From contig JAUSOD010000004.1 in assembly GCA_030656215.1 (NCBI GenBank), positions 1 through 61,148 of the forward strand: a DNA stretch of 61,148 nt, read 5' to 3'. The DNA comes from Azoarcus sp. GTDB lineage: Bacteria > Pseudomonadota > Gammaproteobacteria > Burkholderiales > Rhodocyclaceae. Shown in pieces: positions 22,970 through 51,632 of the stretch. A program made the translations under genes and the position numbers. Each line of letters starts with the position of its first letter. Within the stretch, counting starts at the first letter, position 1. The notes beneath the pieces are model-generated. The model saw only the letters and a list, made by a program, of their open reading frames with translations. It was not told the origin of the DNA and did no database searches.

Positions 22970-25819
22970 ATGGACGCAAACCAGCCGCTGCACCTGAAGA
23001 TCTTCCTCTCGTCGCCGGGTGACGTGGTCGAGGAGCGCGAATTGGCGCGCAAAGTCATCCAGGCCCTGCCGCGCAGCGCGGCCTATCGCGGCAAGGTCAC
23101 CACCGATGTGATCGCCTACGACGATCCCGATGCGCCGTCGCCGATGCCGGCGGGGGTCAACCCACAGGTGTCGGTGGATCGATACAAAGGCCCCGCGGGA
23201 CAGTGCGACCTCACCGTGGTGCTTCTGTGGAGCCGCCTGGGTACCCCCGTTTCGGCCGAGATCGTGCGTCATGACGGCAGTCGCTACGAATCGGGCACGG
23301 TATCCGAATACGAGAACGCCCTTGCCGCGGGCAAGGACGTGTGGCTGTTCAAGCGCACCGAGAAGCCGCGATTCGACATCGACCTCGACGACAAGGCGAT
23401 TGCGGAACTCAAGGCGCAGTACCGGGCGGTCGGTGATTTTTTCGGCCGCCTGAGCAATGCCGATGGCTCGGCCGCCGGCGGTCGACACGAGTACGCCACG
23501 CCGCAGGAATTCGAAGCCCTGTTCGGCAAGCTGCTCGAGGCCTACTTCACCGCCCGCCTTGACAGCATCCCCGCTGCAGCCGAAGCGTCCGCCCGGGCAA
23601 AGGCGGGTACCGATGAGGCTCCATTTCTGATGCCGGACCACGACCGCGACCACGACATCGTCGGCCGCGAGGCACTGGTCCGACAACTGCGGGAGCGGGT
23701 GCTGGGGGGCAAAAGCCAGAGCCTGGTGTTCCTGCCCGGCATCGGGAAGACGGCAATCGCCCAGGAGTTGCTGGCGGATCGCCCCGCCATTCTCGAGCGT
23801 TTTGACGGCGTACTATGGGCGAACCTCGGTCGCCAGCCCCAGGTCGGCGAGCAACTGCAGCGCTGGGCCTCGGCGCTCCATGTGCCCGACGAACGCAAGG
23901 CCAGCCTGGCCAGCATCGACGATTGGAAAGCCACGGTCAAGGACGCCATTGGCGCCCGTCGCATGCTGGTGGTGCTCGACGACGTGTGGCAGAAGAAAGC
24001 CGCGCGGGAGTTCATGCATCTGGTGCCCAACGGGGTGTTCATCATCACCACCCGCCTCAAGGATGTCGGCCTCATGCTGGGCGATCCCGAACTGGTGCCC
24101 GAACTCGACTCCGAAACCGGCCTCAGGCTGTTGACCGATATTGCCCCGAAGGCAGTCGCCTTCGACGCAGAGGGGGCAAGCAACCTGGTGAGCGCGGTCT
24201 ATGGCCTGCCGCTGGCCCTGGTGCTGATCGGCAAATACCTGCGCCGAGAATCCGCCGACGTCGATCCCGACCGCATGGCCAGCGCCTTCCAGATCGTCGC
24301 CGAGGCTGGGCAACGGCTGGAACTCAACCCGAGCGAGGAGGACGGCTCGCGCTCGCTGGCCGAGATCATCGAGATCAGCTTCACCGCCTTGCGGTCCGAC
24401 GAGGCGCGGCGCGCCCTGCTTGCGCTGTCCATCTTCCGCCCCAAACCCGACACCTTTTCCAAGGAGATCGCGCTCCGGGTGGCCGAGGCCGAGCCCGCCG
24501 TCCTGTACGACCTGAGCGACATCGGCCTGATCGAGCACTACGGCCAAGGCGAATACACCATGCACCGGGTGATCGCCGAATACGCCCGCACCAAGCTGCC
24601 GCTGACCGAATCGCAGAACCTGCATCACAAGGCGCTCGACTATTATTCGCGCAAACTGCAGCAGGATATAGACGACAACCCGGTGGCCTACCTGGGCTGG
24701 TACCGCTACGAGCAGACCGACTGGCAAGCCACCAAGGACGCCTGGCTCTACCACCTGGCCCACACCGGCAACGCGGTCACCGGGGTGCTCGCCTTCCTGC
24801 GGGTCTATTTCGATGCCTTCTGGTGGTGGGGCTATTACCAGCGCTTCCCGTTCTGCGAGCGCCTGCTGCTCGAATGGCGCCAGCGCCGCAGCGTGGATCC
24901 ACGGGTCAAGCACGGCCTTGAACTGGTCGCCACGTTCCAGGAGGCCTATCCGGAAGGCCATGAAAAGGCGGCCAAGGGCAACTGGCCCGAAGTCGAACGC
25001 AGCCTGACCAAGCTCCGGCAGAGTCTCGGCCTGGAGGGGGAGGCGGCGAATATCAGCGACCCGGACGCGCGCCGGGTACGGGGCTTCACCGACTTTCTGC
25101 TCGCCGAGGCCCACGGCTACGGCCGCAACGACCGCGACGCCGCGCTCAAGCGCTACACAACCGCCCACGATCTGTTCCAGCGCGATGGCGACCTGTGGGT
25201 GGCGGCCTGGATCTGGTTCTACGTCGGCCAGTATCTGCTCGACCAGGGCGAGCCGGCGCTTGCCGGCGACTATGCCGTGCGTGCGCTGGAAGAGGCCGGC
25301 AGCGCGGCCGGTGGCGAGGACGCCCCGCTCGAGGAGCGCGACACCGAACTGCTCGCCAACAACTTCCGCCTGCTCGGCGATGTGGCCCTGGCCGCGGGAA
25401 ACCTGCACGCGGCGCTGCCGCAATACTGCCGCGCCGCCTTCTACGCCTATGCCTTCCAGGCCATTCCGGAACCGGCCGACAGCTACACCATGGCCTTCTA
25501 CGGCGAAATCACCGGCCGTATCGCCGATCGCGCTCTCGCCCTGGCCGCCACCGATGCTACAGCCAGCCACGCACTGTGCCAGCACCTCCAGGACTACTGG
25601 CAAGCCTACTGGGCGCGTCATTCGCGCCCGTCGACCGACACGCTGCAGGCTGCACTGGCCGTGCCAGACCCCGCCGCCATCGCCGCGGCGATCTTCCCGC
25701 CCGCGCTGAGCGGGGATGTGCTCGCCGGCGCAGCGGATTACGCGCGCGAGGTCAAAGCCATCATCGCTCCGCTGGAGCAGGCCCTGGACGAATATTCTGC
25801 CCCTCTCGACGGGAGGTGA
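22970..25819 (+). CDS. DUF4062-NB-ARC (STAND) NTPase, possible defence protein
   Basis: A 949-residue signalling ATPase. Residues 8-195: a DUF4062-type domain (LKIFLSSPGDVVEERELA). Residues about 230-480: NB-ARC module with P-loop FLPGIGKT (K260, T261), Walker B RMLVVLDDVW (D337-D338), VFIITTRL and the GLPLALVLIG motif. A winged-helix part follows (DIGLIEHYGQGEYTMHRVIA). The C-terminal half is alpha-helical and TPR-like, a probable sensor. The first P-loop glycine is replaced by Phe. STAND proteins oligomerise on ligand binding, and many bacterial ones are anti-phage systems; DUF4062 is a recurrent N-terminal partner. The defence role is inference. No TM segment. Confidence 0.85.
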   Translation: MDANQPLHLKIFLSSPGDVVEERELARKVIQALPRSAAYRGKVTTDVIAYDDPDAPSPMPAGVNPQVSVDRYKGPAGQCDLTVVLLWSRLGTPVSAEIVRHDGSRYESGTVSEYENALAAGKDVWLFKRTEKPRFDIDLDDKAIAELKAQYRAVGDFFGRLSNADGSAAGGRHEYATPQEFEALFGKLLEAYFTARLDSIPAAAEASARAKAGTDEAPFLMPDHDRDHDIVGREALVRQLRERVLGGKSQSLVFLPGIGKTAIAQELLADRPAILERFDGVLWANLGRQPQVGEQLQRWASALHVPDERKASLASIDDWKATVKDAIGARRMLVVLDDVWQKKAAREFMHLVPNGVFIITTRLKDVGLMLGDPELVPELDSETGLRLLTDIAPKAVAFDAEGASNLVSAVYGLPLALVLIGKYLRRESADVDPDRMASAFQIVAEAGQRLELNPSEEDGSRSLAEIIEISFTALRSDEARRALLALSIFRPKPDTFSKEIALRVAEAEPAVLYDLSDIGLIEHYGQGEYTMHRVIAEYARTKLPLTESQNLHHKALDYYSRKLQQDIDDNPVAYLGWYRYEQTDWQATKDAWLYHLAHTGNAVTGVLAFLRVYFDAFWWWGYYQRFPFCERLLLEWRQRRSVDPRVKHGLELVATFQEAYPEGHEKAAKGNWPEVERSLTKLRQSLGLEGEAANISDPDARRVRGFTDFLLAEAHGYGRNDRDAALKRYTTAHDLFQRDGDLWVAAWIWFYVGQYLLDQGEPALAGDYAVRALEEAGSAAGGEDAPLEERDTELLANNFRLLGDVALAAGNLHAALPQYCRAAFYAYAFQAIPEPADSYTMAFYGEITGRIADRALALAATDATASHALCQHLQDYWQAYWARHSRPSTDTLQAALAVPDPAAIAAAIFPPALSGDVLAGAADYAREVKAIIAPLEQALDEYSAPLDGR

Positions 25820-38921: not shown

Positions 38922-39716
38922 TCAGAATGTCCGCTTCACATGCGCGACCCATTTGTCGTCGCCAGTATCCTTGCAGCGTCCAGCGTCGTCGCAAACGGTG
39001 TAGAGCGAAGTCCTGGCGGTGGTGTCGATATAGGCGAGACCAAGCTCCCAGCCATCGTCGAAGCTCTTCACGACGCCGACCTTGTAGTCGGTGAAGTCGT
39101 AGCGTCCATAACTGCGTACTTTCTGGCGCCCCACATGCGCGTTGACGGACCATCCCGGCATGAACTCGTAGTTGGCATTCGCTTCGATGTAGGACGAGCC
39201 TCGTGATCCCCCTTCTCCGGTGCCGAATGAATCCTCGTTGAAGCCGAAGTAATCCCCCAGGGTCTGCGAGTACTTCAGATTGAAGAAGCTCCAGCTGAGC
39301 CCCGCATAGATCTCCAGCGTGTCGTACTTTTCGCGCGTTCCGTTGATCCGTCCCCCCGGAAAGATGAACTGGAGCAGCCCGATGTCGTAAGTGATCTCGC
39401 CCACGCTCCCCGCATACCCTGCATACACGTCAATCTCGCCGACCGCGTTGTTCAGCGCTGCGTCACTGACGTTCGTACCCCATACGCCGGCATAGAGCCC
39501 ACTGTCGTGTGCTACGTCGAAGCCTCCCTGCACGGCCGGTTTGTTCTGGGTGTACGAAATCCCTCTGAACACGTACTGGGAGAAAAGACCCACGTTCGCG
39601 CTCAGCGCGTAGCGGGAACTGGTCTCGCCGGTGTCCGCTGCAAGAATCAGCGGCGAAATGGAACCCAGGGCAATGAAGGCAGTGCCCAGGGCGGTCAATT
39701 TCAGTTTCTTGTACAT
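38922..39716 (-). CDS. TIGR02001-type outer-membrane protein, end of the qhp operon
   Basis: 264 residues, start MYKKLKLTALGTAFIAL (signal peptide to about 27, LILAA). The mature part begins with YALSANVGLFSQYVFRGISY, the typical TIGR02001 opening, with alternating beta strands and a terminal Phe (HVKRTF). It is probably a small barrel. The frame could start earlier, but this ATG begins the signal peptide. It lies 40 bp after qhpG on the same strand, so it may be co-expressed with the amine dehydrogenase and aid amine entry; that link is inference. Confidence 0.8.
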   Translation of the reverse strand: MYKKLKLTALGTAFIALGSISPLILAADTGETSSRYALSANVGLFSQYVFRGISYTQNKPAVQGGFDVAHDSGLYAGVWGTNVSDAALNNAVGEIDVYAGYAGSVGEITYDIGLLQFIFPGGRINGTREKYDTLEIYAGLSWSFFNLKYSQTLGDYFGFNEDSFGTGEGGSRGSSYIEANANYEFMPGWSVNAHVGRQKVRSYGRYDFTDYKVGVVKSFDDGWELGLAYIDTTARTSLYTVCDDAGRCKDTGDDKWVAHVKRTF

Positions 39717-39756
39717 CTTCTGGTCTCCTCGTGAATGAATCGATACGGCCCGCCGG

Positions 39757-41097
39757 TCAGACGCCGGCCAGGGCATGCGCGACGAGATCGCGCTCCTGCA
39801 ACCAGCACCACGCACTCCCTATGCTCGGGGGTGGGTGGCAAAGTTGCCGGGCAAGATCGGCAATACAGGGGGGGCGATGTGAGGACCTGATCAGTTCGGC
39901 AAGGGGAAAGAGATCGACCCCCTCCACGAAGCGGACGCCTCGGGCGGCATCGGGTGTCACCGCGACCCAGCGCTCCTCGATGAAACCGTCTTCGACCACC
40001 GGCCTCCGTTCGAACCGGGGTGATGGCGAGGCTTCCGTGGACGCATGCCCGGGGGACCTCGTTACTGCTTGCCAGAAGGCACTCCCGGGCCAGCGCGTCT
40101 CGGAGAGGTAATGCTCATACGCGGCTCTCGATCGCGCGCCAAAGACCGCCTCCATTCGGGACTCGAAGAATTTCAACGCTGAGTCTCGTGCATCGGGTCG
40201 CCTCAGCAAGGTGTTGACGACGGGTGCAGCGGCCAGCGCGCCCGAGATCGCCTCGAACATCCCGTGCCCCGACAGCGGGTCGACCATGTACGCTGCGTCG
40301 CCCACGCGCAGGTAATCAACGGACGAGGCGACTCCACGCAAGGTCGGGCGTATCCCCCGAACACGTACCGGTCCCGCGGGCCGGAGGAGGCGCCCGAAAC
40401 GAGAGGGAAAATGCTCGAGTGCGTCGAGACCCGCTGTGTGGATGCGCTCGAGGCCTCCCTCCGCCGCAGAAACCCTAGCCGGTAAAGTGACGATCTGGAC
40501 GTGTGCGGCTCCGTGTCCGTCGCCCCCTCCCCATGCCCACCCCTCACGGAACGACTCGATCATGGTCGTTCGCGGTTGGGGGATGGCGCCCTCAAAGGTA
40601 CGGCACAGCGCGACCAGCTCGTAGCTGATATGGCGATCCGCAGCCACCTTGGGGGCGGTGCTGCCGCGGCACTCGACCACCAGGGGCGAACTTGCAGTCC
40701 TCTGCTGCCCCTCGGGGCTCTCCCAATGCACGACCCAGCACCCTTCTGCAACGTGGGTGAGGCCACGCACTGTCCCCATGTGCAATTCGCATCCCGCACG
40801 CCGGGCATCCTCGATGAGCGCGGCATCGAGTACCCGCCGATCGACAGCAAACTCGCCATTCATTTCGATGTTCGCACCTGCCCAGCAGGACACCCGCTTC
40901 CATTGCGGTCCGAGCAGTGCTGTCGCTGCGGTGCAGCCCGCCTGCCTCAGTCCATCGGCGACGCGATGCGACAAACCCTCGACGGCAACGGTAGGCCGCA
41001 GCCTGCCGATCAGCGTCGCACGTATGCCGTGGCGGACGAGGGCAATTCCAAGGAGGCAGGCCGCAGGCCCCGCCCCCAGAATGATCACTTCGCTCAT
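39757..41097 (-). CDS. qhpG: QhpG, FAD-dependent tryptophan hydroxylase of CTQ synthesis
   Basis: 446 residues from the ATG at 41097, with GGAGGAG at normal distance; a closer upstream ATG abuts that site. FAD-binding Rossmann motif EVIILGAGPAACLLGIAL at the N terminus, DRRVLDAALIEDAR in the middle, and GDAAYMVDPLSGHGMFEAIS, the second FAD motif, at about residue 275. It belongs to the tryptophan-halogenase/hydroxylase-like flavoproteins. QhpG dihydroxylates the crosslinked Trp of QhpC on the way to cysteine tryptophylquinone. Eighth gene of the operon here. Confidence 0.88.
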   Translation of the reverse strand: MSEVIILGAGPAACLLGIALVRHGIRATLIGRLRPTVAVEGLSHRVADGLRQAGCTAATALLGPQWKRVSCWAGANIEMNGEFAVDRRVLDAALIEDARRAGCELHMGTVRGLTHVAEGCWVVHWESPEGQQRTASSPLVVECRGSTAPKVAADRHISYELVALCRTFEGAIPQPRTTMIESFREGWAWGGGDGHGAAHVQIVTLPARVSAAEGGLERIHTAGLDALEHFPSRFGRLLRPAGPVRVRGIRPTLRGVASSVDYLRVGDAAYMVDPLSGHGMFEAISGALAAAPVVNTLLRRPDARDSALKFFESRMEAVFGARSRAAYEHYLSETRWPGSAFWQAVTRSPGHASTEASPSPRFERRPVVEDGFIEERWVAVTPDAARGVRFVEGVDLFPLAELIRSSHRPPCIADLARQLCHPPPSIGSAWCWLQERDLVAHALAGV

Positions 41098-41119
41098 TTC
41101 CATCTCCTCCGCTTGATGC

Positions 41120-43273
41120 TCATCGAAAGGCCGCCCCGCGAGGTCTCGCCCCAAGCCAGACTGCGCTCAACACCATGAGGACGAGGCCGCTCCACAGCAG
41201 TGACGAGAACGGGAAGACACGGACGACGACCACCGCCTCGGCCGTCCCACTCCCACTATCGAGCGCTGCAACTGCCGCGGCGGGTGAAACCCAGACCTGG
41301 ATCGCACGACCCCAGTCGTGGTCGGTAAACGGGTGCAGGACATATCCCGCCGAACTCGCAAACCGTGCATAGCGGTAGTCCAGCACTTCGCATATCTGGC
41401 GTACCGGGCCGCTGTACCCCGCCAGCGGGGAGCGCGTGTCACGATAGAGCGCCTGCCCCGAGATCGGCCCTTTCGATGGCGTGTTCAACTCCACCTGAGC
41501 AATTGAACGGAAGTGGCCTTCCTTTCCGACGAATCCACCATCGGCCCTGCGGTCGACATCGATTGCCCTGATCCGAAAGAGATAGCCATGAGCATCCCGG
41601 GTCCATTCGCCGGGCGCGTCGTCGAGCACAAGCACCTGCTGCGAGTAAGTATTGAGGACCGTCGACAGGACGCCCCCCCAGAGGGCAAGCACGACGCCGA
41701 CATGCAGGAGCGCAAGCGGCAGCACGTATGCCGTTCCGCCACGCGTTCCCCGCCAGGCACCCCGTACCCCCCAGACAAAGCTACCGAGGGCGAGAAATGC
41801 ACCGGCAAGCAGGCTCGCATCAATGAGCGGCAGCACGCCGACGATCTGCTGCGACAGGACGCCGGCGCCCCGATACTGTTCGCTGAGGTAGCCCCCCCGG
41901 GCCCAGACGTAGGCGGAACCGAGCAGGGCCAGGCCCAGCGCAACGAGTCCCGCCCGTGGCGACAGACGCCGAAAGAAATACCACCCGCCGAGCACGCCGA
42001 CTGAGGTCAGCGGTAGCAGCAGGGCCCGGGCAAGTGCGTAACCGTCCACATCCCACTGGGAGAAAGCCCGGCGCAGTCCGGCCAGCTCCGCGCCTCCGGT
42101 CCAGTTGCTCAGCGTGGCGAAGAAGGGCTTCAGCGCCTCCGCGCGGGGCAGGCCGAGCAGCCCGCCGGCAAAGGCTGCCGCGACATGGGAAAGTGCGAGC
42201 AGACCGGCGATGACAAAGCAGGTCCGAACCAGCGCGAGGCCCAGCTCGGCTGCGCTCGGGCGAGCTCTCGGGCGGCGCCGACTCCTCTCCTCCTGCGCCG
42301 GGCGCAGGTGCAGGATGCCAAGCACAGCGAGGACGCCGGCAAGCACAAGGTGGCTCACCCAACTGTCGGCACCGACATAGCGATGCGAACTCGCAAGCAC
42401 CTCGCTTCGCGTCACGGCCATGGCCATCGCCGCCGATGCGGCTGCCAGGAATGCGGCAGCGGATACCATCCTCGACCTCGAACGGCCGGCCCCGTGGAGG
42501 ACTGCAGTGAGAAAACACCACACGGCGAAGACGGATGTCTGGACCGGGTCCCAGTGCCAGACCTGCCCATAGGTCGCGTCCTCGAATGCCCAGATCATTC
42601 CAAACCCGATGCCGCCGGTCAGCGCGGCCCATGCACGTCGCGCCGACCTGACCGCGCCAGCCGGCCACACCGAAGTACCCGCGGCAGGGGCGGCAAGAAA
42701 CAGGATCCAGGCGTAGGCGATCAGGATCAAGGGCGCATGAAGCAGCATCCAGAAGGTCATCAGATGCGCATTCATCCCCTGCGACGGCGCACTTGCCAGC
42801 CACTCGCCCGGGGTTGCCGCAAAGGGATCAAGCCAGGCGGCCGTCACCACGTAGCATGCGGTGATGATCACAGTCGGCTCGAGCGCGCCGGGACGCTCGA
42901 GCCTGGTGCGCGCAGCCAGGCTTGCACACAGGGCCGCCAGCAGGAGCATGGTCCCTTCGTCGCCACCCCAGAGATTGGCGAACTTGAGGTGGGCAGGAAG
43001 CGCCGCCGCGCTATAGAGCCACACGTAACGGACCATGAACTGATCCGTCAACAGATGCCATGCGAGCGCGGCCACTCCGCCCCACAGCATTGCAGTTGCG
43101 CTTCGCAGCAACACCACGCGCATCGCCCCCCACGGGATGGCGCCCACGACGAGAATCGCCGCGAACGCCACCAGCAGGCGCCCTGCCGTGGGCCAGACGA
43201 CGGAACACAGCGCGGTGGCGGCAAATACCGCGGCTGCGTGCCACCGCCCACTTCCATCTCGTCGGTCAGGCAC
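41120..43273 (-). CDS. CcmF/CcsA-like cytochrome c biogenesis protein within the qhp operon
   Basis: 717 residues from a GTG at 43273 that overlaps the qhpE stop by 8 bases and has GGAG 7 bases upstream. Many TM helices. The motifs follow CcmF in order: KFANLWGGDEGTMLLLAALC (compare WGxHEGS), AHLMTFWMLLHAPLILIAYA, then GQVWHWDPVQTSVFAVWCFL, which corresponds to the WWD haem-handling motif, and a later SSHRYVG segment. A large soluble part follows (about 560-680). The sequence is much diverged from housekeeping CcmF. QhpA carries two c-type haems, so a dedicated ligase is plausible, but it is unproven. I do not recall a CcmF-like gene in the described qhp operons. Confidence 0.8.
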   Translation of the reverse strand: MPDRRDGSGRWHAAAVFAATALCSVVWPTAGRLLVAFAAILVVGAIPWGAMRVVLLRSATAMLWGGVAALAWHLLTDQFMVRYVWLYSAAALPAHLKFANLWGGDEGTMLLLAALCASLAARTRLERPGALEPTVIITACYVVTAAWLDPFAATPGEWLASAPSQGMNAHLMTFWMLLHAPLILIAYAWILFLAAPAAGTSVWPAGAVRSARRAWAALTGGIGFGMIWAFEDATYGQVWHWDPVQTSVFAVWCFLTAVLHGAGRSRSRMVSAAAFLAAASAAMAMAVTRSEVLASSHRYVGADSWVSHLVLAGVLAVLGILHLRPAQEERSRRRPRARPSAAELGLALVRTCFVIAGLLALSHVAAAFAGGLLGLPRAEALKPFFATLSNWTGGAELAGLRRAFSQWDVDGYALARALLLPLTSVGVLGGWYFFRRLSPRAGLVALGLALLGSAYVWARGGYLSEQYRGAGVLSQQIVGVLPLIDASLLAGAFLALGSFVWGVRGAWRGTRGGTAYVLPLALLHVGVVLALWGGVLSTVLNTYSQQVLVLDDAPGEWTRDAHGYLFRIRAIDVDRRADGGFVGKEGHFRSIAQVELNTPSKGPISGQALYRDTRSPLAGYSGPVRQICEVLDYRYARFASSAGYVLHPFTDHDWGRAIQVWVSPAAAVAALDSGSGTAEAVVVVRVFPFSSLLWSGLVLMVLSAVWLGARPRGAAFR

Positions 43274-43928
43274 GTCGACACTCCGGACCGATGTAGTGCG
43301 CACTGCGCTGCAGCAGCTGACGGACATCGGCCGCCGCAGCCCCGGACATCAGGAGACGGCTTACGAGGCCACTCATTCGAGCCGCAGCGATACTGGCGCC
43401 CCCTCCGCAGTCGGGGCAGTTGGCGATGAGCATCGGATGAGTGCCAAAATCCGCCGTCTCGGTATCGAGCCACGCGTACTCCCCGGGGGCGCAACGCGCG
43501 TCGCCGGACACCGCGATGCACTCCTCATACCCCGCAGGAAACACGCGCAGGCCACGCGCGGGCGACGAGGCGACGAGCACTACGCCGCGACCGGCAGCCT
43601 CACGACAGGCTCGCTCCAGCCCTGCGTTCGGGCCCGCGATGCCGAAACTCATGTTGATGATCTGAACATGCTCCCGCACGAGCCAGTCGATCGCCTCCGA
43701 TACGCAATCGACCGCAGCCTCGCGACCGATGCCGAAAATCTGAGCAACGACGAGCCGCGCGCCGGTGCAATGTTCCAGCACACACTGCGCGATCTGGGAC
43801 CCATGCCCGAGCAGATCCGGATGCACGCGTCCTCGATTGCCTCGCGCGCCCACGAACCTGCGCTCGTTGTCGACGTGACGAGCCTGCTCGGCGCTGACGC
43901 CGCTGTCGATCAATCCGACTCGAACCAT
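43266..43928 (-). CDS. qhpE: QhpE, subtilisin-like leader peptidase
   Basis: 220 residues from the ATG at 43928 (GGGAG upstream). A compact subtilase: Asp in VGLIDSGV (D8), His in GHGSQIAQCV (H42), Ser in GGASIAAARMSG (S179). The usual oxyanion Asn motif (AAGN) reads VASSPARG, so that Asn seems absent or moved. There is no signal peptide or pro-domain. In the known pathway QhpE removes the N-terminal leader of crosslinked QhpC. It follows the exporter gene by 29 bp and is coupled to the CcmF-like gene. Confidence 0.85.
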   Translation of the reverse strand: MVRVGLIDSGVSAEQARHVDNERRFVGARGNRGRVHPDLLGHGSQIAQCVLEHCTGARLVVAQIFGIGREAAVDCVSEAIDWLVREHVQIINMSFGIAGPNAGLERACREAAGRGVVLVASSPARGLRVFPAGYEECIAVSGDARCAPGEYAWLDTETADFGTHPMLIANCPDCGGGASIAAARMSGLVSRLLMSGAAAADVRQLLQRSAHYIGPECRRA

Positions 43929-43957
43929 GGGATGCTCCCTTACGGCTACGCAAACCA

Positions 43958-45682
43958 TCAAAGATCGATGACCTGATCGAACATTGCAGGGTCAAGCGCG
44001 CGATGACTGATCAGGATGCGGGTCGTGTTCGGGTAGGCCTCGTCGATCGCGGCAAGGGTGCTCTGCTCCAGCGCACCGTCGAGCCCCGACGTGGCTTCGT
44101 CGATGATGAGCACCTGCGGCTCGATCAATAGCGCACGGGCAAGTCCGATGCGCTGCCGCTCTCCCCCGGACAGGCTCGCCCCCCTGGGGCCAAGCACCGT
44201 ATCGAGTCCGTCGGCAAGGCGCCGCGAGAAGTCGCTGACGCCGGCAATCGCCGCCGCGCGTACCACCGCCTCGCGTCCGGCTTCCGGGTTCCCGTAGGCG
44301 ATGTTGTCGAGAAGACTTCCGGCGAACAGGACCACATCCTGCGAGACGATGCCGATCCTGCGCCGCAGGTCGGTCCGTCGGACCTTGCGGATATCCACGC
44401 CATCGATCAGGAGCGCGCCGCAATCCGGCTCGAGATGACGATGGAGCAGATCGACGAAGGTTGATTTGCCCGCACCTGAAACCCCACGGAGCCACACCTT
44501 GCCCCCCGGACGGACATGCATGTCGAGCCCGTCGAGTACTTTGGTCGAGCGCCCGGGATAGGCGAAGTCGAGCCCGGCCACCACGATCTCGCCCCGCTCG
44601 ATGGTGGCCTCACCCTCACCCGCACGATCGCGGACGGCAGAGGGCATGTTGCGCAATTCGTCGACCCGGATCAAACCAACCTTGACGCGCTGCCACGACA
44701 GATAAAGCCCCATCAAGGCCTGAAGCGGGGCGCTGCCGCGCTGGACATAAGTGGCGAACGCCACCAAGGTGCCCAGGGTGAGCGCGTCGTCGCCATGCAT
44801 GAAGACTCCGCCGGCGACAAAGATCCCGATGATGGCCAGTGAAAGCACCAAGTTTGGAAACGCGCCACCGACGTAGGACACAATCTGCAGCGCGAGCAGC
44901 CGATCACGCGCCGTCCGGTGCAATTGCTGCAGGCGTGCGAGTTCCCTGTCCTCGGCGCCATAGGTCTGCACACATTTGACCGCGGAGGTTTTCTCGAGCA
45001 GGAAGGCCGACACGTCGACGCCGGCTTCGCGCGCGTCCCTGGACAGCGTTCTGATGCGTGGACTGACATGACGCAACACCAGGCCGTTGACCGCCATCAA
45101 TCCGGCGAGAAACAGCGCCAGCATGGGGCTGAGGAAACTGATCAGCACCACCGTTCCGATCAGCGTCAGTACGGAATTGATCGCAGACAGTACGGAATCG
45201 ACGGCAAAACGCTGAACCTCGCCAAGATCCGCTTCGAGCCGGGTCATCAGGTCACCCTGGCGCATGCGGGAGAAAAAATCGGGCGGCAGGGTCAGCACGT
45301 GCGCGAACAGGGATTCGCGCATTCGATGAAGAATGCGTGCAGACGCACCGACATGGATTCGTCTGCACGCGAGTCCCACGAGCAGCGCCGACAGGGCCAG
45401 TGCCACCATGGCTCCACCGACCTTGAGCACCATCGAAGAGCTGCCGGCCAGGATGCCATCGTCGATGAGCGCCTTCGTAAGCAGGGGTTGTGCAAGGCCG
45501 GCCAGTACCGCAACCAGCGAGAGCAGAAGAACGCCCGCCAAGGCTGCCCCCTCGGGGCGGACGAACTCGGCAGCCCAACGGTACATCCCGGAGAGTCGGG
45601 GCTCCACACCCGGAGGCCGCGGCTCGGCCAGCCCTGGAGACCGTTCCACAACCACCGCTCCGAGCACTGCTTCGGCGTTCAT
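43958..45682 (-). CDS. qhpF: QhpF, ABC exporter for crosslinked QhpC
   Basis: 574 residues, a half-type exporter: membrane domain with six helices (about 40-330), then the ATPase with Walker A GVSGAGKSTF, signature LSGGERQRIGLARAL, Walker B VLIIDEATSGLDG and switch His (LISHRAL). No peptidase C39 domain, so leader removal is left to QhpE. In the qhp pathway it carries the modified gamma peptide to the periplasm. It lies 12 bp after qhpB. Confidence 0.9.
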   Translation of the reverse strand: MNAEAVLGAVVVERSPGLAEPRPPGVEPRLSGMYRWAAEFVRPEGAALAGVLLLSLVAVLAGLAQPLLTKALIDDGILAGSSSMVLKVGGAMVALALSALLVGLACRRIHVGASARILHRMRESLFAHVLTLPPDFFSRMRQGDLMTRLEADLGEVQRFAVDSVLSAINSVLTLIGTVVLISFLSPMLALFLAGLMAVNGLVLRHVSPRIRTLSRDAREAGVDVSAFLLEKTSAVKCVQTYGAEDRELARLQQLHRTARDRLLALQIVSYVGGAFPNLVLSLAIIGIFVAGGVFMHGDDALTLGTLVAFATYVQRGSAPLQALMGLYLSWQRVKVGLIRVDELRNMPSAVRDRAGEGEATIERGEIVVAGLDFAYPGRSTKVLDGLDMHVRPGGKVWLRGVSGAGKSTFVDLLHRHLEPDCGALLIDGVDIRKVRRTDLRRRIGIVSQDVVLFAGSLLDNIAYGNPEAGREAVVRAAAIAGVSDFSRRLADGLDTVLGPRGASLSGGERQRIGLARALLIEPQVLIIDEATSGLDGALEQSTLAAIDEAYPNTTRILISHRALDPAMFDQVIDL

Positions 45683-45694
45683 CGACGGGCCTCC

Positions 45695-46804
45695 TCAGCG
45701 AGTAAACACGCGCAGCGAGGTCAGCACCTGATCGGCGCCGTTGGGGGTGCGGATGTTGCCGATCTTCTTCAGGCTTCGACTGTCATGGACAGCGATATCG
45801 CCTTGCGTTCCACCGATGTACAACTCCTCTCCGTCAGACGAGACATTAACGTTGTAGTAGGTGTGATCGAGATCGACCCGATCCATCTTCCCGCTCTCCA
45901 TGTCGGTCCGGGTGAGCTGGGTATAGACCGTGTACACCTCGTTGCGCCGTACCGGGTTCACGACCGACGAGAACAACACGACCGAGGCGTTTTCGAACTC
46001 CTTGTAGTTGACGACATCCTTTTCGAGGTCGAGCGTCCAGATGCCGGCCCGCAGCGACGCCGGGTCACCGGCCGGCTTGTCGGTACTGGCAACGTAGAAC
46101 GGTGTTGCGAACACCTTGCTCTGCTCCCACTGCGGCCAGATCGGCAGGGTGTCGGGTTCACCCCGATTGTCGCGCTGCCAGCTGCGCCACGGATGCATGC
46201 CCTTTACCTCGCCACTCTGCGGATCCAGCTTGAGCATTTCCCAGCCGTAGGCGTACAGGGTGTCACCCTTGGTCGAGTAGGCGAGCGTGGCCACACGGCG
46301 AGTGGTGGGCAACTTGCGCACTGGCTTTGCGTTCACACCCCCCGTCGTGCTGTAGACGGCAATGTAGGGATCCTGGACCTGGTACTCGCCGGGGAGCAGG
46401 CGCGTCGGGTTCACAAACACCGCCAGCTCCTTGCCGTCCGGACTGAGGTCCATCGCAAAGGGCGCCTTCCCGCGAATGTCACCTTCTGACAGCTCCGCAC
46501 GGAAAACTTCTTTCCCGCTATCCAGGTCGATGCCGGAAATGCTCTCCCAGCGGTTGTGGATTACATATGCCACCTTTCCGTCACGGGAAGGCACCAGCGT
46601 GATCGGGCTGTTGCCCATCGAGGTGTTCGGAATCGTGTGGGTCTTGATGACCTTGCGTTCCTTGGCATCCGCGACGAAGACCAGGTTGGGCCTGCTTGCC
46701 GTCACCAGGTAGTCCTTGGCGGCAATCGCACCCGTGGCATACAGCGCAAGGAAGATCGCCCCCAGCTTCAGGGCACTTGCGGACTTCGACTTTTTCATTG
46801 ACAT
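45695..46804 (-). CDS. qhpB: QhpB, amine dehydrogenase beta subunit
   Basis: 369 residues, signal peptide to about residue 29 (FLALYATGAIAA). The mature protein is a seven-bladed beta-propeller of the YVTN type: KDYLVTASRPNLVFVADA, PSRDGKVAYVIHNRWESISG, DLSPDGKELAVFVNPTR and VNVSSDGEELYIGGTQGDIA mark successive blades. In the crystal structures of QHNDH the beta subunit seats the gamma peptide with its quinone. The ATG at 46804 is preferred (AAGGAAT upstream); a second ATG is two codons in. Confidence 0.92.
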   Translation of the reverse strand: MSMKKSKSASALKLGAIFLALYATGAIAAKDYLVTASRPNLVFVADAKERKVIKTHTIPNTSMGNSPITLVPSRDGKVAYVIHNRWESISGIDLDSGKEVFRAELSEGDIRGKAPFAMDLSPDGKELAVFVNPTRLLPGEYQVQDPYIAVYSTTGGVNAKPVRKLPTTRRVATLAYSTKGDTLYAYGWEMLKLDPQSGEVKGMHPWRSWQRDNRGEPDTLPIWPQWEQSKVFATPFYVASTDKPAGDPASLRAGIWTLDLEKDVVNYKEFENASVVLFSSVVNPVRRNEVYTVYTQLTRTDMESGKMDRVDLDHTYYNVNVSSDGEELYIGGTQGDIAVHDSRSLKKIGNIRTPNGADQVLTSLRVFTR

Positions 46805-46851: not shown

Positions 46852-47172
46852 TCATTTCGGGAACACGGACTGCAGGGCTCGCCAATCACGCGCGGCATCA
46901 TCGTTGCCCTCATTCCAGCCGGGATAGCTGTGCAGCGTGTCCGGCACCTGTGCCGGCCACCAGCAGGGGTCGGAGCAACCGTAGAGGTCGGCCTCCATCG
47001 GCTGGCACAGTCCGGCGACACCGAGGAACGGGTCGAGCTCCCAACCGGGGTCGAAGGTCGTCGAACAGCCGGCAACATTGGCCGACATGGCGACCACCTT
47101 GTCCATACTCTCGGCACCTGGGGCCGCCTCGATCAAACGGGCTTTCTTGTTCAAAGGCTTCATGCGATTCAT
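46852..47172 (-). CDS. qhpC: QhpC, amine dehydrogenase gamma subunit, crosslinked CTQ peptide
   Basis: 106 residues: a leader of about 29 residues ([20 protein letters not shown]...) and a compact core from [17 protein letters not shown] to the end (QSVFPK). Compared with the Paracoccus gamma subunit, all crosslinking pairs are kept at a constant offset: C36-E45, C56-D62 and C70-D78 as thioether bridges, and C66-W72 as the cysteine tryptophylquinone. The core shows [20 protein letters not shown]. QhpD makes the bridges, QhpG oxidises the Trp, QhpF exports and QhpE trims. Its ATG overlaps the qhpD stop (ATGA). It has no signal peptide of its own. Confidence 0.95.
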
Positions 47173-48611
47173 AGTTCGGAACTCCTGTTGGCAACATGAC
47201 GTTGGAGAAATGCGGGATTCTTCTCCATGAGAAGCAGATAAGCTTCGATCCCGAAGTCGACCCAATCCCTGAGCAGTTCGCAGTAGTGGTACACCGGCGA
47301 GTGCGGGTCGCCGAAGTTTGCGTAGGACTCGTGGTAACAACCTCCGGAACACAGATTGCGGATACGGCAGCTCGAGCAGCCGCGCTGACTGCGGTCGAGT
47401 GCATCCTCAAGGAACCGGCCAAGCTCGGGCTTGGCAATACCCGTCGTAACATTCCCGAAAGTCGGCAAGGAGGAGCCGGTGAAGCGGTGGCACAGATTGA
47501 GATCGCCCTTGTGATCGACGGCGAGCAGCCCCATTCCTGCGCCGCAGGGCAGCGACTTTCGGCGCCCCTCGAGGAGATCGCTCAGGAGCTGATGCATGTT
47601 CGAGAAACCGATGTTCTCGTCCCTGATCGCGGCCGCCACATATTCGCGGCCGAGCGCCTTCATCGACTCGAACACGGCCTTGAGCTCGTCACCCACGAGA
47701 TTGAAGGTCGTGATCGGATTGCTCGTGACCGGCGCGAAGCCGACCTCGGCAAAACCGAGCTCATCCTTCAGATGCCGGTGAATGGCACCGACATCCGAAT
47801 AGCCCGCGGTCAGGGTTACCCGGGCCCCGACCGGCCGCGAGCGATAGCGCGACAGGAGCATTCGCGCCTTGCGCGCAACGACTTCATAGGTACCCTTTCC
47901 ACCAATGGTCTTGCGCCTCGCGTCATGGACAGCCTGGGGACCGTCCATGCTGATCGAGATACCGAATCGATGCTGATCGAAGTAGTCGGCGATTTCCTCG
48001 GTCAACAAGGTGGCGTTGGTCGTGAGCGAGAACTCCACCTTCTTCCCGAGCTGACGACAGCGCTCCTCGGTATACGCGGTCACTGCCTTGATCAGGCCCA
48101 TGTTCGACAGCGGTTCGCCGCCAAAGAAGACCACGTTCACCGTGGGTCGGGATGCCCCTTCCCGAAGCAACAGTTCGATACTGTTCCTGGCCGTCTCGAA
48201 ACTCAGCTTCATCCCCTTGGAAGGGGTGGCCAGATCCTCTTTGTAACAGTAGGTGCAACTCAGATTGCATCCGGTATTCACGTTCAACACCAGGGTACTC
48301 AGAGGGAACTCTGTCACCTTGACGCCGGGTCCGTGATCCGGAACCGCCGGTGTGTTTCGCAGTATCCCCAGAGACTTGAGGTCCTCCACGGCCTCCGCCA
48401 GGGATGCCGGCGAGCCGGCCCGATCGAATTCGGTATGAATCTCCTCGAAACTGATGGTCGAGCGGGTCCGCGCGAAGTCCAGCAGCTCGGCGGAGACCCC
48501 GTCAAGATCGAATATCCCGCTGCTCGGGACGTGCAACAGCACACGTCGCCCGCGCACCTCGAGATCGTGGAACGCGTGCGTATCCACGTACAGCAGACTG
48601 GGTTCAGACAT
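47169..48611 (-). CDS. qhpD: QhpD, radical SAM peptide-crosslinking enzyme
   Basis: 480 residues, starting [21 protein letters not shown]-terminal peptide-recognition-like region (about 1-95), radical SAM core with CNLSCTYC (C115, C119, C122) binding the cluster used to cleave [12 protein letters not shown] (the GGE motif), then a SPASM-type C-terminal domain with [28 protein letters not shown] and a final YCELL. It forms the Cys-to-Asp/Glu thioether bridges inside QhpC. The start at 48611 is preferred over 16 codons upstream. Overlaps qhpC by 4 bases. Confidence 0.93.
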
Positions 48612-48639
48612 GATGATTGACCTCAGGTTGGGGCTGGCT

Positions 48640-50253
48640 TCAGCGGATCGGGGGATCATTCCAGCGCTGCACGGTGACGATCAGCGGAGCCTGGGCCGAC
48701 ACGGTCCGGTCTCCGTCCTGCACCGCCGCAGTTACCAGCAACTCGCCAGCGTTATTGGCCGAGAAAACTCGTTTTGGATTGGGCCCGGCTTCGTTCGGCA
48801 GAAAGAGACCATTCGGCTCGATGCGCCCGGCAAAATCGAGATCCCGCATCTTTTCGGCCGCCTCATTCAGGTTCGCGAGGCCCCACTTCGCGTCCACGAC
48901 CCCCAGTCGCAGATCGTCGTCCGTGCCTGGCTTGCCATCCGCACCTGCGGCATAGGCCACGGCTTCGAGTTGAGCGGGCACTTTCGGCAGCTTTCCGCCA
49001 CCGTCGCCCACCCGAGCCATGGGATGCGCGGGCACAATCTTCACCAGGTCGATCGAGCGATAGACCTTGAGGGCCCCGTCGCTGCTGACGCCATCGAGGC
49101 TGACCGTACGCACGCCAGTTTCCGCGTCGCGCGCCACCTCCACTTCGACCACGAGCTGCTCCAAGGTCCGCGAGACGACCTTCGAAACCACCACATCCGG
49201 CCCGAGACTCACTTCTCCTTTCAGTCCAACGCCATTGATCGTCAGGGTCTCCTTGGCCCCCGCCCGCGCCATCGCGGGCTGCACCGAAAGGATGACGGGT
49301 GTGCCGCCATCTGCGCGGACAGCCTTGAAGTCGCCGCCAATCGCGTCGTTGCCCTCCTCAAACCAGCGCCCCGCCAGCTCCCTGCCTCCCTCCTTCAGGC
49401 TGAAAACCTGCAGGATGTCCTTGTCACCCTGGCGGAGCTTCGCGCGCCACTCGTGTCCGGCGTACAGGATGCTGCTGCCCTTGGCGTTCTCCACCTTGCC
49501 GTTGGCGTACTTGATCCGCATGTCGACGCGGTAAGTGTCATCACCGCCAGGGCTGACCGTTGCAGTCCCTTCATATCCACCCCAGCCGGGCCGATGCCCG
49601 ACGAGCCGCCATTTGCCTTGGGGACTCGCATGTTTGGTCTCCTTCCAGCTTTTCCACGCCTCGGACTGAAGGCCATACACCTTCCCCAAACGTTGGGACA
49701 CGTCACCGGAGGCGATCTCGAACCAGTTCCGATCACGCCCGCCGGCCTGGATCTCAATCGCCGGATACTGTCCAACGTGGAAATGCACGAGCTTCCGCCA
49801 TTCGCCCTCGGTTCGCCGTTGAACGGCAATCCGGCCATAGGAATGGCAACGGGCACAGGTCTGGCCGATCTCCTCATCCTCGAAATGCTCGATCACACTC
49901 GGGCTTCGATCGAGGATGTAGCGATAGGAGGCCGTCTCCTGCGGCGCCAATCCGTGCTCGTCCGCAAGGTATTTGACGATGTCCCGGCGCTCCGTGCCGC
50001 TCAGAACGACGCCATGGGCATAGGTCATGCGGGCGACGGTCATGTCCCACCCTTCCGGCGTCCTGCGGCTGTCACTGATCCTGTCCCACTTGCCGGGCTC
50101 GGACGCCGCGTGGCAGGTTCCACACTTCGCGCTTACGAGTGCTTCGGCTTTCGCGCTGGCCGCCGCCGCACTTGACACGATGAACGGTGCGATCAGCGCC
50201 ATCGCCGGCACAAGCCAGCGCCCCTTGCCGTGACTCCTTGAATTGATTCCCAT
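48640..50253 (-). CDS. qhpA: QhpA, amine dehydrogenase alpha subunit (dihaem)
   Basis: 537 residues, signal peptide to about 32 (LIAPFIVSSAAAA). Two haem c sites: CGTCH (C44, C47, H48) and CARCH (C133, C136, H137), within a c-type cytochrome domain of about residues 35-190; then three beta-rich domains (IPT/immunoglobulin-like; for example VILSVQPAMARAGAKETLTI). This is the QHNDH alpha subunit that accepts electrons from the quinone in QhpC. The enzyme oxidises primary amines in the periplasm to aldehydes, passing electrons to azurin or cytochrome c. First gene of the operon, starting ATG at 50253 with AGAGG upstream. Confidence 0.95.
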   Translation of the reverse strand: MGINSRSHGKGRWLVPAMALIAPFIVSSAAAASAKAEALVSAKCGTCHAASEPGKWDRISDSRRTPEGWDMTVARMTYAHGVVLSGTERRDIVKYLADEHGLAPQETASYRYILDRSPSVIEHFEDEEIGQTCARCHSYGRIAVQRRTEGEWRKLVHFHVGQYPAIEIQAGGRDRNWFEIASGDVSQRLGKVYGLQSEAWKSWKETKHASPQGKWRLVGHRPGWGGYEGTATVSPGGDDTYRVDMRIKYANGKVENAKGSSILYAGHEWRAKLRQGDKDILQVFSLKEGGRELAGRWFEEGNDAIGGDFKAVRADGGTPVILSVQPAMARAGAKETLTINGVGLKGEVSLGPDVVVSKVVSRTLEQLVVEVEVARDAETGVRTVSLDGVSSDGALKVYRSIDLVKIVPAHPMARVGDGGGKLPKVPAQLEAVAYAAGADGKPGTDDDLRLGVVDAKWGLANLNEAAEKMRDLDFAGRIEPNGLFLPNEAGPNPKRVFSANNAGELLVTAAVQDGDRTVSAQAPLIVTVQRWNDPPIR

Positions 50254-50385
50254 CGAATGCCTCTTGTATGTGCTGGATGCGATGAAGGCCGGTGCGACCC
50301 AAGGTCATATCCGACTGAATGTCACGGCAGACACTGAATCGCACCTGCCGTTGGACGAATACTAGGAGTCGTGCCTCAGCGCGGT

Positions 50386-50432
50386 TATCAAGAAACGGCC
50401 AGGGGTTCCCGCCGCACTATCAAAAAACGGCC
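50386..50432. promoter_or_regulatory. Direct-repeat operator candidate between qhpA and qhpR
   Basis: TATCAAGAAACGGCC at 50386-50400 recurs as TATCAAAAAACGGCC at 50418-50432, 14 of 15 identical, with a start-to-start distance of 32 bp, about three helical turns. Tandem 15-17 bp sites on one face of the helix are typical of AraC-family regulators such as QhpR. They lie about 130-180 bp from the qhpA start and 170-215 bp from the qhpR start. Confidence 0.6.
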
Positions 50433-50530
50433 CTCCGTTCTCCGCTTCACACGAATCCCTTGTCCGTGCCAGGGCTAATGCCTAAAGTGATAGTGACCAT
50501 CAGGACGGCCAAAGCTTGGCCGTTCAAATC

Positions 50531-50560
50531 CGATGCCGCGGGACGGACGCCGCGGCATCG
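50531..50560. repeat. Inverted repeat in the qhpR leader
   Basis: Perfect 11-bp arms CGATGCCGCGG (50531-50541) and CCGCGGCATCG (50550-50560) with an 8-nt loop. It sits 40 bp before the qhpR start. It could be an mRNA leader hairpin or an operator. There is no T-run after it, so it is not an ordinary terminator. Confidence 0.55.
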
Positions 50561-50600
50561 GCATTTCCGGATAAGGTGGCTAATAAGGAGACAAGGAGTG

Positions 50601-51632
50601 ATGGAGACAATCGTGAATCTGCGTCAGGAGGTAATCGAGCCGGAAGGCATCGATCGATCCTCCTGCATCTTCACGAGCGACGCATGCCAGCATGCAGCGA
50701 GCCTGCCCGACTGGTCACAGGAGTACCTGCAACTTTCACCCGGACGCTTTTCAGGCGAGATCGTCGAAGCGTCGACCGGACCCATACAGGTGTTCCGGGA
50801 GACGCTCAACCAGTGTGTAGACGAGAAAGCCCACCCACGACCCGACACCTACACAATTGGCGTTCCGATCGAAGTCGAACCAGGGGGGCTCTGGCAAGGT
50901 CGGGCGCTGGTGCCGGACTCGCTGATGACGCTGAATCCGAACGAGGAGCTGCATTTCCGAACGCCTCGCCAATCAAGCATCCTTGTTGCAGTCGTCGGCC
51001 GTGCTGCGTTCGAGCGGCACGCGCTTGCAGCCGTTGGCGTCGATGTGCAACCACTGATCGCCCAGTCCCGTGCCGAACAGCTTCGACCCGATCTGGCGCA
51101 GCAGTACCGTGCGACGCTCAACAACGTACTTGCCTGTGCCACCACCACCCCGGAGGTCCTCGAATACTCGGCCTCAAGCAAGGCAATGACTGAAGCGGTG
51201 CTGAACGCGGCTCTGCTGGCACTTCGCGCGCGTCCGTCAACAAGTGAGCAGCTTCGCGGCGGTCACCACGTCCAACGCTCCATCGTCGAGCGCGCCCGTA
51301 ACCACGTTCTCGCCAACCCGGAGAGTCCTCCAACCGTGAGCGAGCTCAGCGCACACTTGAAAATGAGCCGGCGCGGCCTTCATCACGCATTCATCAACGT
51401 GCTCGGCATCAATGCGGCCACCTTCCTGCGTTATGTGCGTCTGCACGGCGTTCGGAAGGAACTCCTCAGGGCAGGCAACGACCAAAGCGTCAGCGTCGTC
51501 GCTTACAAATGGGGCTTCTGGCACATGGGCATGTTCTCGTCGTACTACAAGACACTATTTGGCGAAACCCCATCGGCCACCCTGCGCCACCCCCCGGGCA
51601 TCATCTCAACTCAGCAGGTCAGACTTCACTGA
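50601..51632 (+). CDS. qhpR: QhpR, AraC-family regulator
   Basis: 343 residues from the ATG at 50601 with AAGGAG upstream; the frame extends about 280 bp further but that DNA holds the operator repeats. N-terminal sensing domain of AraC_binding_2-like type (about 1-200), then two helix-turn-helix motifs at the C terminus (PPTVSELSAHLKMSRRGLHH, VSVVAYKWGFWHMGMFSSYY...GETPSATLR). It is divergent from qhpA, the position known for QhpR, which turns on the operon in response to amines. The direct repeats at 50386-50432 are the likely binding site. Confidence 0.9.
   Translation: METIVNLRQEVIEPEGIDRSSCIFTSDACQHAASLPDWSQEYLQLSPGRFSGEIVEASTGPIQVFRETLNQCVDEKAHPRPDTYTIGVPIEVEPGGLWQGRALVPDSLMTLNPNEELHFRTPRQSSILVAVVGRAAFERHALAAVGVDVQPLIAQSRAEQLRPDLAQQYRATLNNVLACATTTPEVLEYSASSKAMTEAVLNAALLALRARPSTSEQLRGGHHVQRSIVERARNHVLANPESPPTVSELSAHLKMSRRGLHHAFINVLGINAATFLRYVRLHGVRKELLRAGNDQSVSVVAYKWGFWHMGMFSSYYKTLFGETPSATLRHPPGIISTQQVRLH

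Follow-up and report, generated by a model that had tools for sequence, protein, structure and literature searches.

The question raised by this locus is what a CcmF-like, haem-handling membrane protein does in an operon for quinohemoprotein amine dehydrogenase (QHNDH). The gene, here called X, lies in a 61,148-nucleotide stretch of Azoarcus sp. DNA (contig JAUSOD010000004.1); the whole of this stretch is referred to as the window.

Organization of the qhp operon

The genes around X were named by curated models with scores above the model cut-offs, with the exception of qhpF, which was named only by its position and domains (Table 1). The order on the minus strand is qhpADCBFE-X-G, and the operon is complete, containing all seven genes from qhpA to qhpG. 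The observation of a CcmF-like gene within a qhp operon is confirmed. X begins with a GTG at 43273 and ends with a TGA at 41120; an alternative in-frame ATG at 43327 would give a protein of 735 aa. The GTG overlaps the stop of qhpE by 8 nt (GTGCCTGA). The ATG of qhpG, at 41097 with a GGAGGAG stretch upstream, is 22 nt past the X stop, and a second in-frame ATG at 41103 would shorten this gap to 16 nt. The coordinates of X, its coupling to qhpE, and its spacing from qhpG had been given correctly in the original prediction, and the gene set named there as the described one, qhpABCDEFGR, agrees with the accessible part of PMC7876137.

Table 1 Features of the window, with the evidence for each (scores in bits)
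Feature	Position	Strand	Evidence
X, CcmF-like integral membrane haem-handling protein, 717 aa	41120..43273	-	Open frame; family, fold, and residue evidence
qhpA, alpha subunit, two CXXCH haem c sites (CGTCH, CARCH)	48640..50253	-	TIGR03908 (QH_alpha), 693
qhpD, radical SAM maturase	47169..48659	-	TIGR03906 (quino_hemo_SAM), 785; true start possibly inside frame
qhpC, gamma subunit carrying CTQ	46852..47172	-	NF037958 (QH_gamma), 156 on the longer frame 46852-47352; start read off frame
qhpB, beta subunit	45695..46804	-	TIGR03907 (QH_beta), 501
qhpF, ABC exporter	43958..45682	-	PF00664 and PF00005; named by position and domains
qhpE, subtilisin-like leader protease	43266..43961	-	NF049966 (QH_SP), 233
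qhpG, flavin monooxygenase	39757..41097	-	NF049967, 385 on the longer frame 39757-41154
Candidate qhpR, divergent AraC-type regulator	50319..51632	+	PF12833; identity inferred from position
TorF-type putative porin, directly after qhpG	38922..39815	-	TIGR02001, 157
949-aa protein	22970..25819	+	NB-ARC domain, 67

The best NCBIfam match of the candidate qhpR was EutR, at 157 bits and under the cut-off of 319. The ORF cluster that includes the porin also has members downstream of X at eight further loci (L005, L006, L007, L008, L009, L011, L013, and L015). Scans of the window for tRNAs and Rfam families gave no matches.

X is a distant relative of CcmF

X matched the Pfam family Cytochrom_C_asm (PF01578) with 37.5 bits, above the gathering score of 29.9. 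On the CcmF/NrfE model TIGR00353 it scored only 70.2 bits against a cut-off of 569; the genome's own CcmF scored 736.9 on the same model. X is nevertheless a full-length CcmF homologue: hhalign aligned it over 575 columns, with 100% probability and an E value of 9e-40, to a profile built from 15 CcmF proteins and E. coli NrfE, and it contains the motif WHWDPV. Its AlphaFold model (pLDDT 88.5, pTM 0.92) had one match in the PDB with E < 0.001 by Foldseek, namely CcmF 6ZMQ (E 1.5e-14, TM 0.60/0.72). Both the CcmF-type character of X and its remoteness from housekeeping CcmF, as originally predicted, therefore hold.

Phylogenetic analysis of 19 X, 16 CcmF, NrfE, and three outgroup rows placed X on one side of a branch with a long stem and a support of 76, apart from the genome's own CcmF. 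Rooting with CcmC and CcsA was poor, the CcsA branch having a length of 10 and falling beside X, so only the split between X and CcmF was used; its support was 76–80, under the 95 mark. The grouping with the ordinary CcmF that might have undermined the prediction was thus not seen, although the support for separation is weak. The genome does have a ccm cluster, on contig C73, comprising ccmA, B, C, E, F, and G, ccmI, and a CcmH/NrfF-like gene whose sole match was to NrfF, at 98 bits, below the model cut-off. Since this separate cluster has its own ccmF, X was rejected as the genome's ordinary CcmF.

Active-site residues of X

Residues were counted in 56 X proteins, the truncated ones from L043 and L054 being left out of 58, and compared with those in 37 CcmF proteins (E. 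coli included) plus NrfE. The WWD motif aligned gap-free. Another alignment, A1, contained 47 of the 58 X proteins. The histidine haem ligands, H179/H297 (periplasmic pair) and H260/H524 (transmembrane pair), were kept in all 56, as were the conduit tryptophans W215/W252 and residues W228, W239, W241, and D242. The position of CcmF E246 was Gln in 56/56 X proteins and Glu in 37/37 CcmF proteins and in E. coli NrfE. Of the synthase pair W229/E246 (E. coli numbering), X therefore has only the tryptophan, again in 56/56. In every X protein CcmF N247 was replaced by Thr, F241 by His240, and L164 by His170; W236 was always Tyr or Phe. H170, H240, and C628 were invariant in X and missing at those places in the 37 CcmF proteins and NrfE. 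Two inserts were found only in X, one at approximately 390–415 and the other around C628, with W407 and C628 each present in 56/56. Both should face the periplasm, judging from the helix pattern of the model counted off the loops with the periplasmic histidines.

According to the accessible part of PMC10746174, substitutions E246A, E246C, W229A, and W229C left E. coli CcmF defective for synthase function, W236A impaired it severely, and W236C was partly active. The conduit proposed to reduce CcmE haem runs from the transmembrane haem through W216 and W253 to the periplasmic haem, and the transmembrane haem has a potential of −147 mV (PMC10663686, accessible part). As read from the alignment, X has retained the haem ligands and the electron conduit, replaced the synthase Glu, and gained potential new ligands. 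This changed active site suggests that X may act other than by ordinary haem attachment.

Distribution of X and its association with qhp

Six peptide patterns taken from X were run against 84,980 genomes, each representing a different species; such a scan detects only sequences near X at those six places. Sixty-eight stretches were found, 58 of them coding for relatives and representing 57 loci; the hosts were Thauera, Azoarcus, Methyloversatilis, Azonexus, several Pseudomonas, Emcibacter, Terasakiella, Magnetospirillum, and others. With the window included, the stretch around X contained one or more qhp genes at 47 of 58 loci (in L052, a piece of qhpE only). Adding six loci from later sampling, which overlap in part with the genomes already covered, gave 64 examined loci. 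Of these, 53 had qhp genes, with the nearest one at most 600 nt from X in 50 and sharing its strand in 49. This nearest gene was qhpA in 24 of the 53, and in the Pseudomonas loci qhpA is just downstream of X on the same strand. X is unlinked in 11 genomes, ten of which have qhpA above the cut-off elsewhere; the eleventh (G804) is a metagenome-assembled genome of 1.5 Mb. The predicted tie between X and qhp is thus upheld, and with the exception of one partial case, no genome shown to be devoid of qhp had X.

Seven Emcibacter-like loci (L045, L046, L050, L051, L053, L054, and L058) have no qhp gene beside X in the stretch examined, and several Emcibacter-like loci have in common putative neighbors, named from inspection, that encode EPSP synthase, SelO, Dus, and a zinc-ribbon protein. 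In L041 and L047, qhpADCB directly precedes X and putative SelO- and Dus-like genes are on its other side.

When the window's genome and 60 relatives were surveyed for X, it was found in the window's genome only, the best other match having 65 bits. Even draws of 369 and 398 genomes contained eight distinct genomes with qhpA above the cut-off, the window's included, three of which have X. Of 25 genomes of genus g347, 24 have qhpA and 21 of those have X; the one that lacks qhpA also lacks X. In a second class, six of 289 genomes had qhpA and one of these six had X. Loci with qhp and without X are common (20 loci). These surveys show that X goes with qhp, yet qhp can do without X. Plasmid cargo was rejected as an explanation for X: no match spanning 80% of X occurred in 72,556 plasmid records, 27 of which matched QhpA. 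Among six of these 27 loci that were inspected, five are annotated and show no X; tblastn found X in none of the six, the unannotated Novosphingobium locus included.

Loss of X and its relation to QhpA

Orthologues of X in 10 of 10 close pairs had dN/dS values of 0.10–0.31, indicating purifying selection and therefore that X is not a chance open frame; the X of the window has no close relative among these pairs. A natural deletion was found in G474 (L205:9556-9616), in which approximately 2.3 kb holding X is missing and qhpADCB is retained. The flanks are 83–94% identical in DNA sequence to those of X-containing relatives, making this a clean loss. In G821 and G828, X is absent between blocks conserved on both sides; in G821 approximately 5 kb of the X-containing relative has no counterpart, which is more than X itself.

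Three explanations for the presence of X were considered and set aside. On a QhpA tree of 73 rows (69 different), rows with and without X interleave, with 11 changes, at least eight of them forced by well-supported branches; X is thus not bound to a QhpA subtype. The label is clustered on the tree nonetheless, none of 500 shuffles giving a count as low. Altered QhpA haem motifs do not account for X, since QhpA has two CXXCH motifs with and without X; in L146 and L047 a single motif was seen in the reading frame used, the L047 frame being cut by a contig end. Finally, CcmE was found in 42/43 genomes with X and in 9/10 without it, the remaining one having ResB, so the type of cytochrome biogenesis is uninformative about X.

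Proposed role of X

X very likely handles haem for QHNDH maturation, in an accessory and non-universal step; an ordinary ligase role is doubtful. With a probability of roughly 0.4, we favor a CcmF-derived membrane haem protein dedicated to QHNDH maturation, with a redox role in periplasmic finishing. X would bind two haems, a haem b within the membrane and another on the periplasmic side, and would retain the electron-transfer half of the CcmF mechanism, from the quinone pool through the transmembrane haem and two tryptophans to the periplasmic haem; the thioether-forming half would be altered. The electron exchange would serve to finish QHNDH in the periplasm. The likeliest reaction is oxidation of the dihydroxy-Trp of exported QhpC to CTQ, and an alternative is reductive priming of the haem or thiols of QhpA. 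In the accessible part of PMC7876137 (2021), cross-linking, hydroxylation, and leader cleavage of QhpC are cytoplasmic and precede export by QhpF, and the QhpA haems are tentatively credited with the final oxidation to CTQ after export. A redox step after QhpC export would suit a membrane-bound haem wire derived from CcmF, and a membrane haem protein tied to qhp is a concrete further candidate for this last oxidation. A more elaborate version is unlikely: X would have lost haem attachment, would hold its periplasmic haem permanently, perhaps tethered through C628, and would act as a transmembrane di-haem wire, converting the exported QhpC precursor oxidatively to cysteine tryptophylquinone while delivering the released electrons to the quinone pool.

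Branch rates were compared over 39 branches from 21 loci with all seven genes (L007, L010, L014, and L060 were left out). The covariation of X, uncorrected for multiple testing, was +0.42 with QhpE, +0.35 with QhpF, +0.11 with QhpA, and −0.39 with QhpC, pointing weakly to the export arm, QhpE and QhpF, rather than to QhpA; different gene histories could cause the rest. The negative value for QhpC, the proposed substrate, counts against a redox role, as do the common qhp operons without X and the −147 mV of the CcmF transmembrane haem, which would be poor for an oxidizing role unless X is tuned.

We rank this redox role above the possibility that X is a dedicated holocytochrome c synthase for QhpA, which would take haem from CcmE, borrow the housekeeping CcmH and CcmI, and attach one or both QhpA haems. 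That reading is a real contender. X has the CcmF fold and every haem ligand, QhpA carries two haems c, its gene is the nearest qhp gene in 24/53 linked loci and just downstream on the same strand in Pseudomonas, CcmE is present in 42/43 genomes with X, and NrfEFG and SirEFG provide precedents (PMC6976685, accessible part). The presence of CcmE is non-discriminating, however, given its occurrence in 9/10 genomes without X, and the synthase Glu, which E. coli NrfE retains, is Gln in 56/56 X proteins. In addition, the two CXXCH motifs of QhpA are there regardless of X (one in the frames read for L146 and L047), X has been lost with qhpA retained, and the genome has a ccm cluster. A scan of the window's eight operon proteins found no CcmH/NrfF-like protein; for other loci, the neighbors of X were grouped into clusters and inspected in part. 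Of the original proposal of a dedicated haem ligase or a factor timing haem attachment with gamma-subunit assembly, haem handling tied to qhp stands, and the dedicated ligase as stated is unsupported by this same evidence. Gln is able to mimic Glu in hydrogen bonding. Synthesis of holocytochrome by X follows closely behind the redox role because the variants in the accessible part of PMC10746174 were Ala and Cys, not E246Q, and because housekeeping CcmE and CcmH could serve X.

It is improbable that X is an assembly platform with a purely structural haem, one that docks QhpA, QhpC, and the exporter QhpF at the membrane and performs no chemistry itself. The two inserts of X, placed on the periplasmic side by the predicted helices, would suit such docking, and the rate covariation with QhpE and QhpF agrees weakly; however, both haem pairs, the conduit tryptophans, and the WWD core are invariant over 56 proteins, beyond what a scaffold would need. 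Least probable is a passenger or relic sitting by chance in qhp operons. The clean loss in G474, the absence of X between conserved blocks in G821 and G828, and the seven Emcibacter-like loci with no qhp gene beside X would fit a passenger, but dN/dS values of 0.10–0.31, the presence of qhpA in 10/11 genomes with an unlinked X, and the lack of X in the sole g347 genome without qhpA all argue against it.

Among the open-access papers searched, none contained both CcmF and quinohemoprotein; most subscription papers fall outside this scope, so a prior mention is possible. Among the matches listed for quinohemoprotein amine dehydrogenase, qhp/CTQ, and cytochrome c maturation, no such gene is named in titles or abstract starts.

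A UbiU-like gene pair and QhpG

Ten loci with X (L038, L057, L059, L061, L012, L013, L016, L017, L019, and L034) contain a UbiU-like U32 gene and a partner gene. With queries taken from loci with X, the pair was found in 0/20 loci without X, within the stretches examined. Four pairs were scanned: the UbiU-like gene matched PF01136 above the cut-off and scored 70–94 bits on NF047963 (UbiU; cut-off 440), and the partner had no family match. Nine genomes have the pair. In four of them (L038:16907-19040, L057:48-1842, L059:11776-13747, and L061:11794-13801), where it is beside qhpABCDEF, QhpG was above the cut-off nowhere; in the other five QhpG was present. UbiU takes part in hydroxylation that is independent of oxygen, and the pair may therefore hydroxylate the CTQ tryptophan without oxygen, making it a candidate oxygen-independent replacement of the QhpG monooxygenase in the four genomes. 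The window's genome has a second QhpG-like frame (G000:C73:32731-33717; 173 bits, cut-off 240), a few kb from the ccm cluster.

Comparison with known systems

X shares with CcmF, the System I holocytochrome c synthase (6ZMQ), its full-length fold, both histidine pairs, the conduit tryptophan pair, and the WWD core W-x-W-D-P-V. It differs in being only approximately 27% identical to the genome's own CcmF over the part aligned by BLAST; in the changes E246 to Q, N247 to T, F241 to H, L164 to H, and W236 to Y or F; in its inserts with invariant W407 and C628; and in the position of its gene with qhp, apart from other ccm genes. X is a natural experiment on which CcmF active-site residues serve electron transfer and which serve haem attachment.

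NrfE of NrfEFG and SirE of SirEFG are likewise CcmF-type paralogues encoded beside a client cytochrome, being dedicated to NrfA and SirA, respectively (PMC6976685, accessible part; for nrf, also the E. coli genes). Unlike theirs, the operon of X showed no NrfF/NrfG-like protein when its eight proteins were scanned, and QhpA, its putative client, has ordinary CXXCH haem motifs; NrfE, moreover, retains the synthase Glu that is Gln in X.

The remaining comparison is with MauG, a di-haem enzyme of tryptophan tryptophylquinone biosynthesis for methylamine dehydrogenase (PMC7876137, accessible part). The role proposed for X would be analogous, a haem-based oxidation that completes a tryptophylquinone cofactor; the analogy would extend to role alone. 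MauG is not known to be a membrane protein of the CcmF fold. If the more elaborate version of the redox role is true, X would be a haem ligase turned redox enzyme and the membrane counterpart of MauG.
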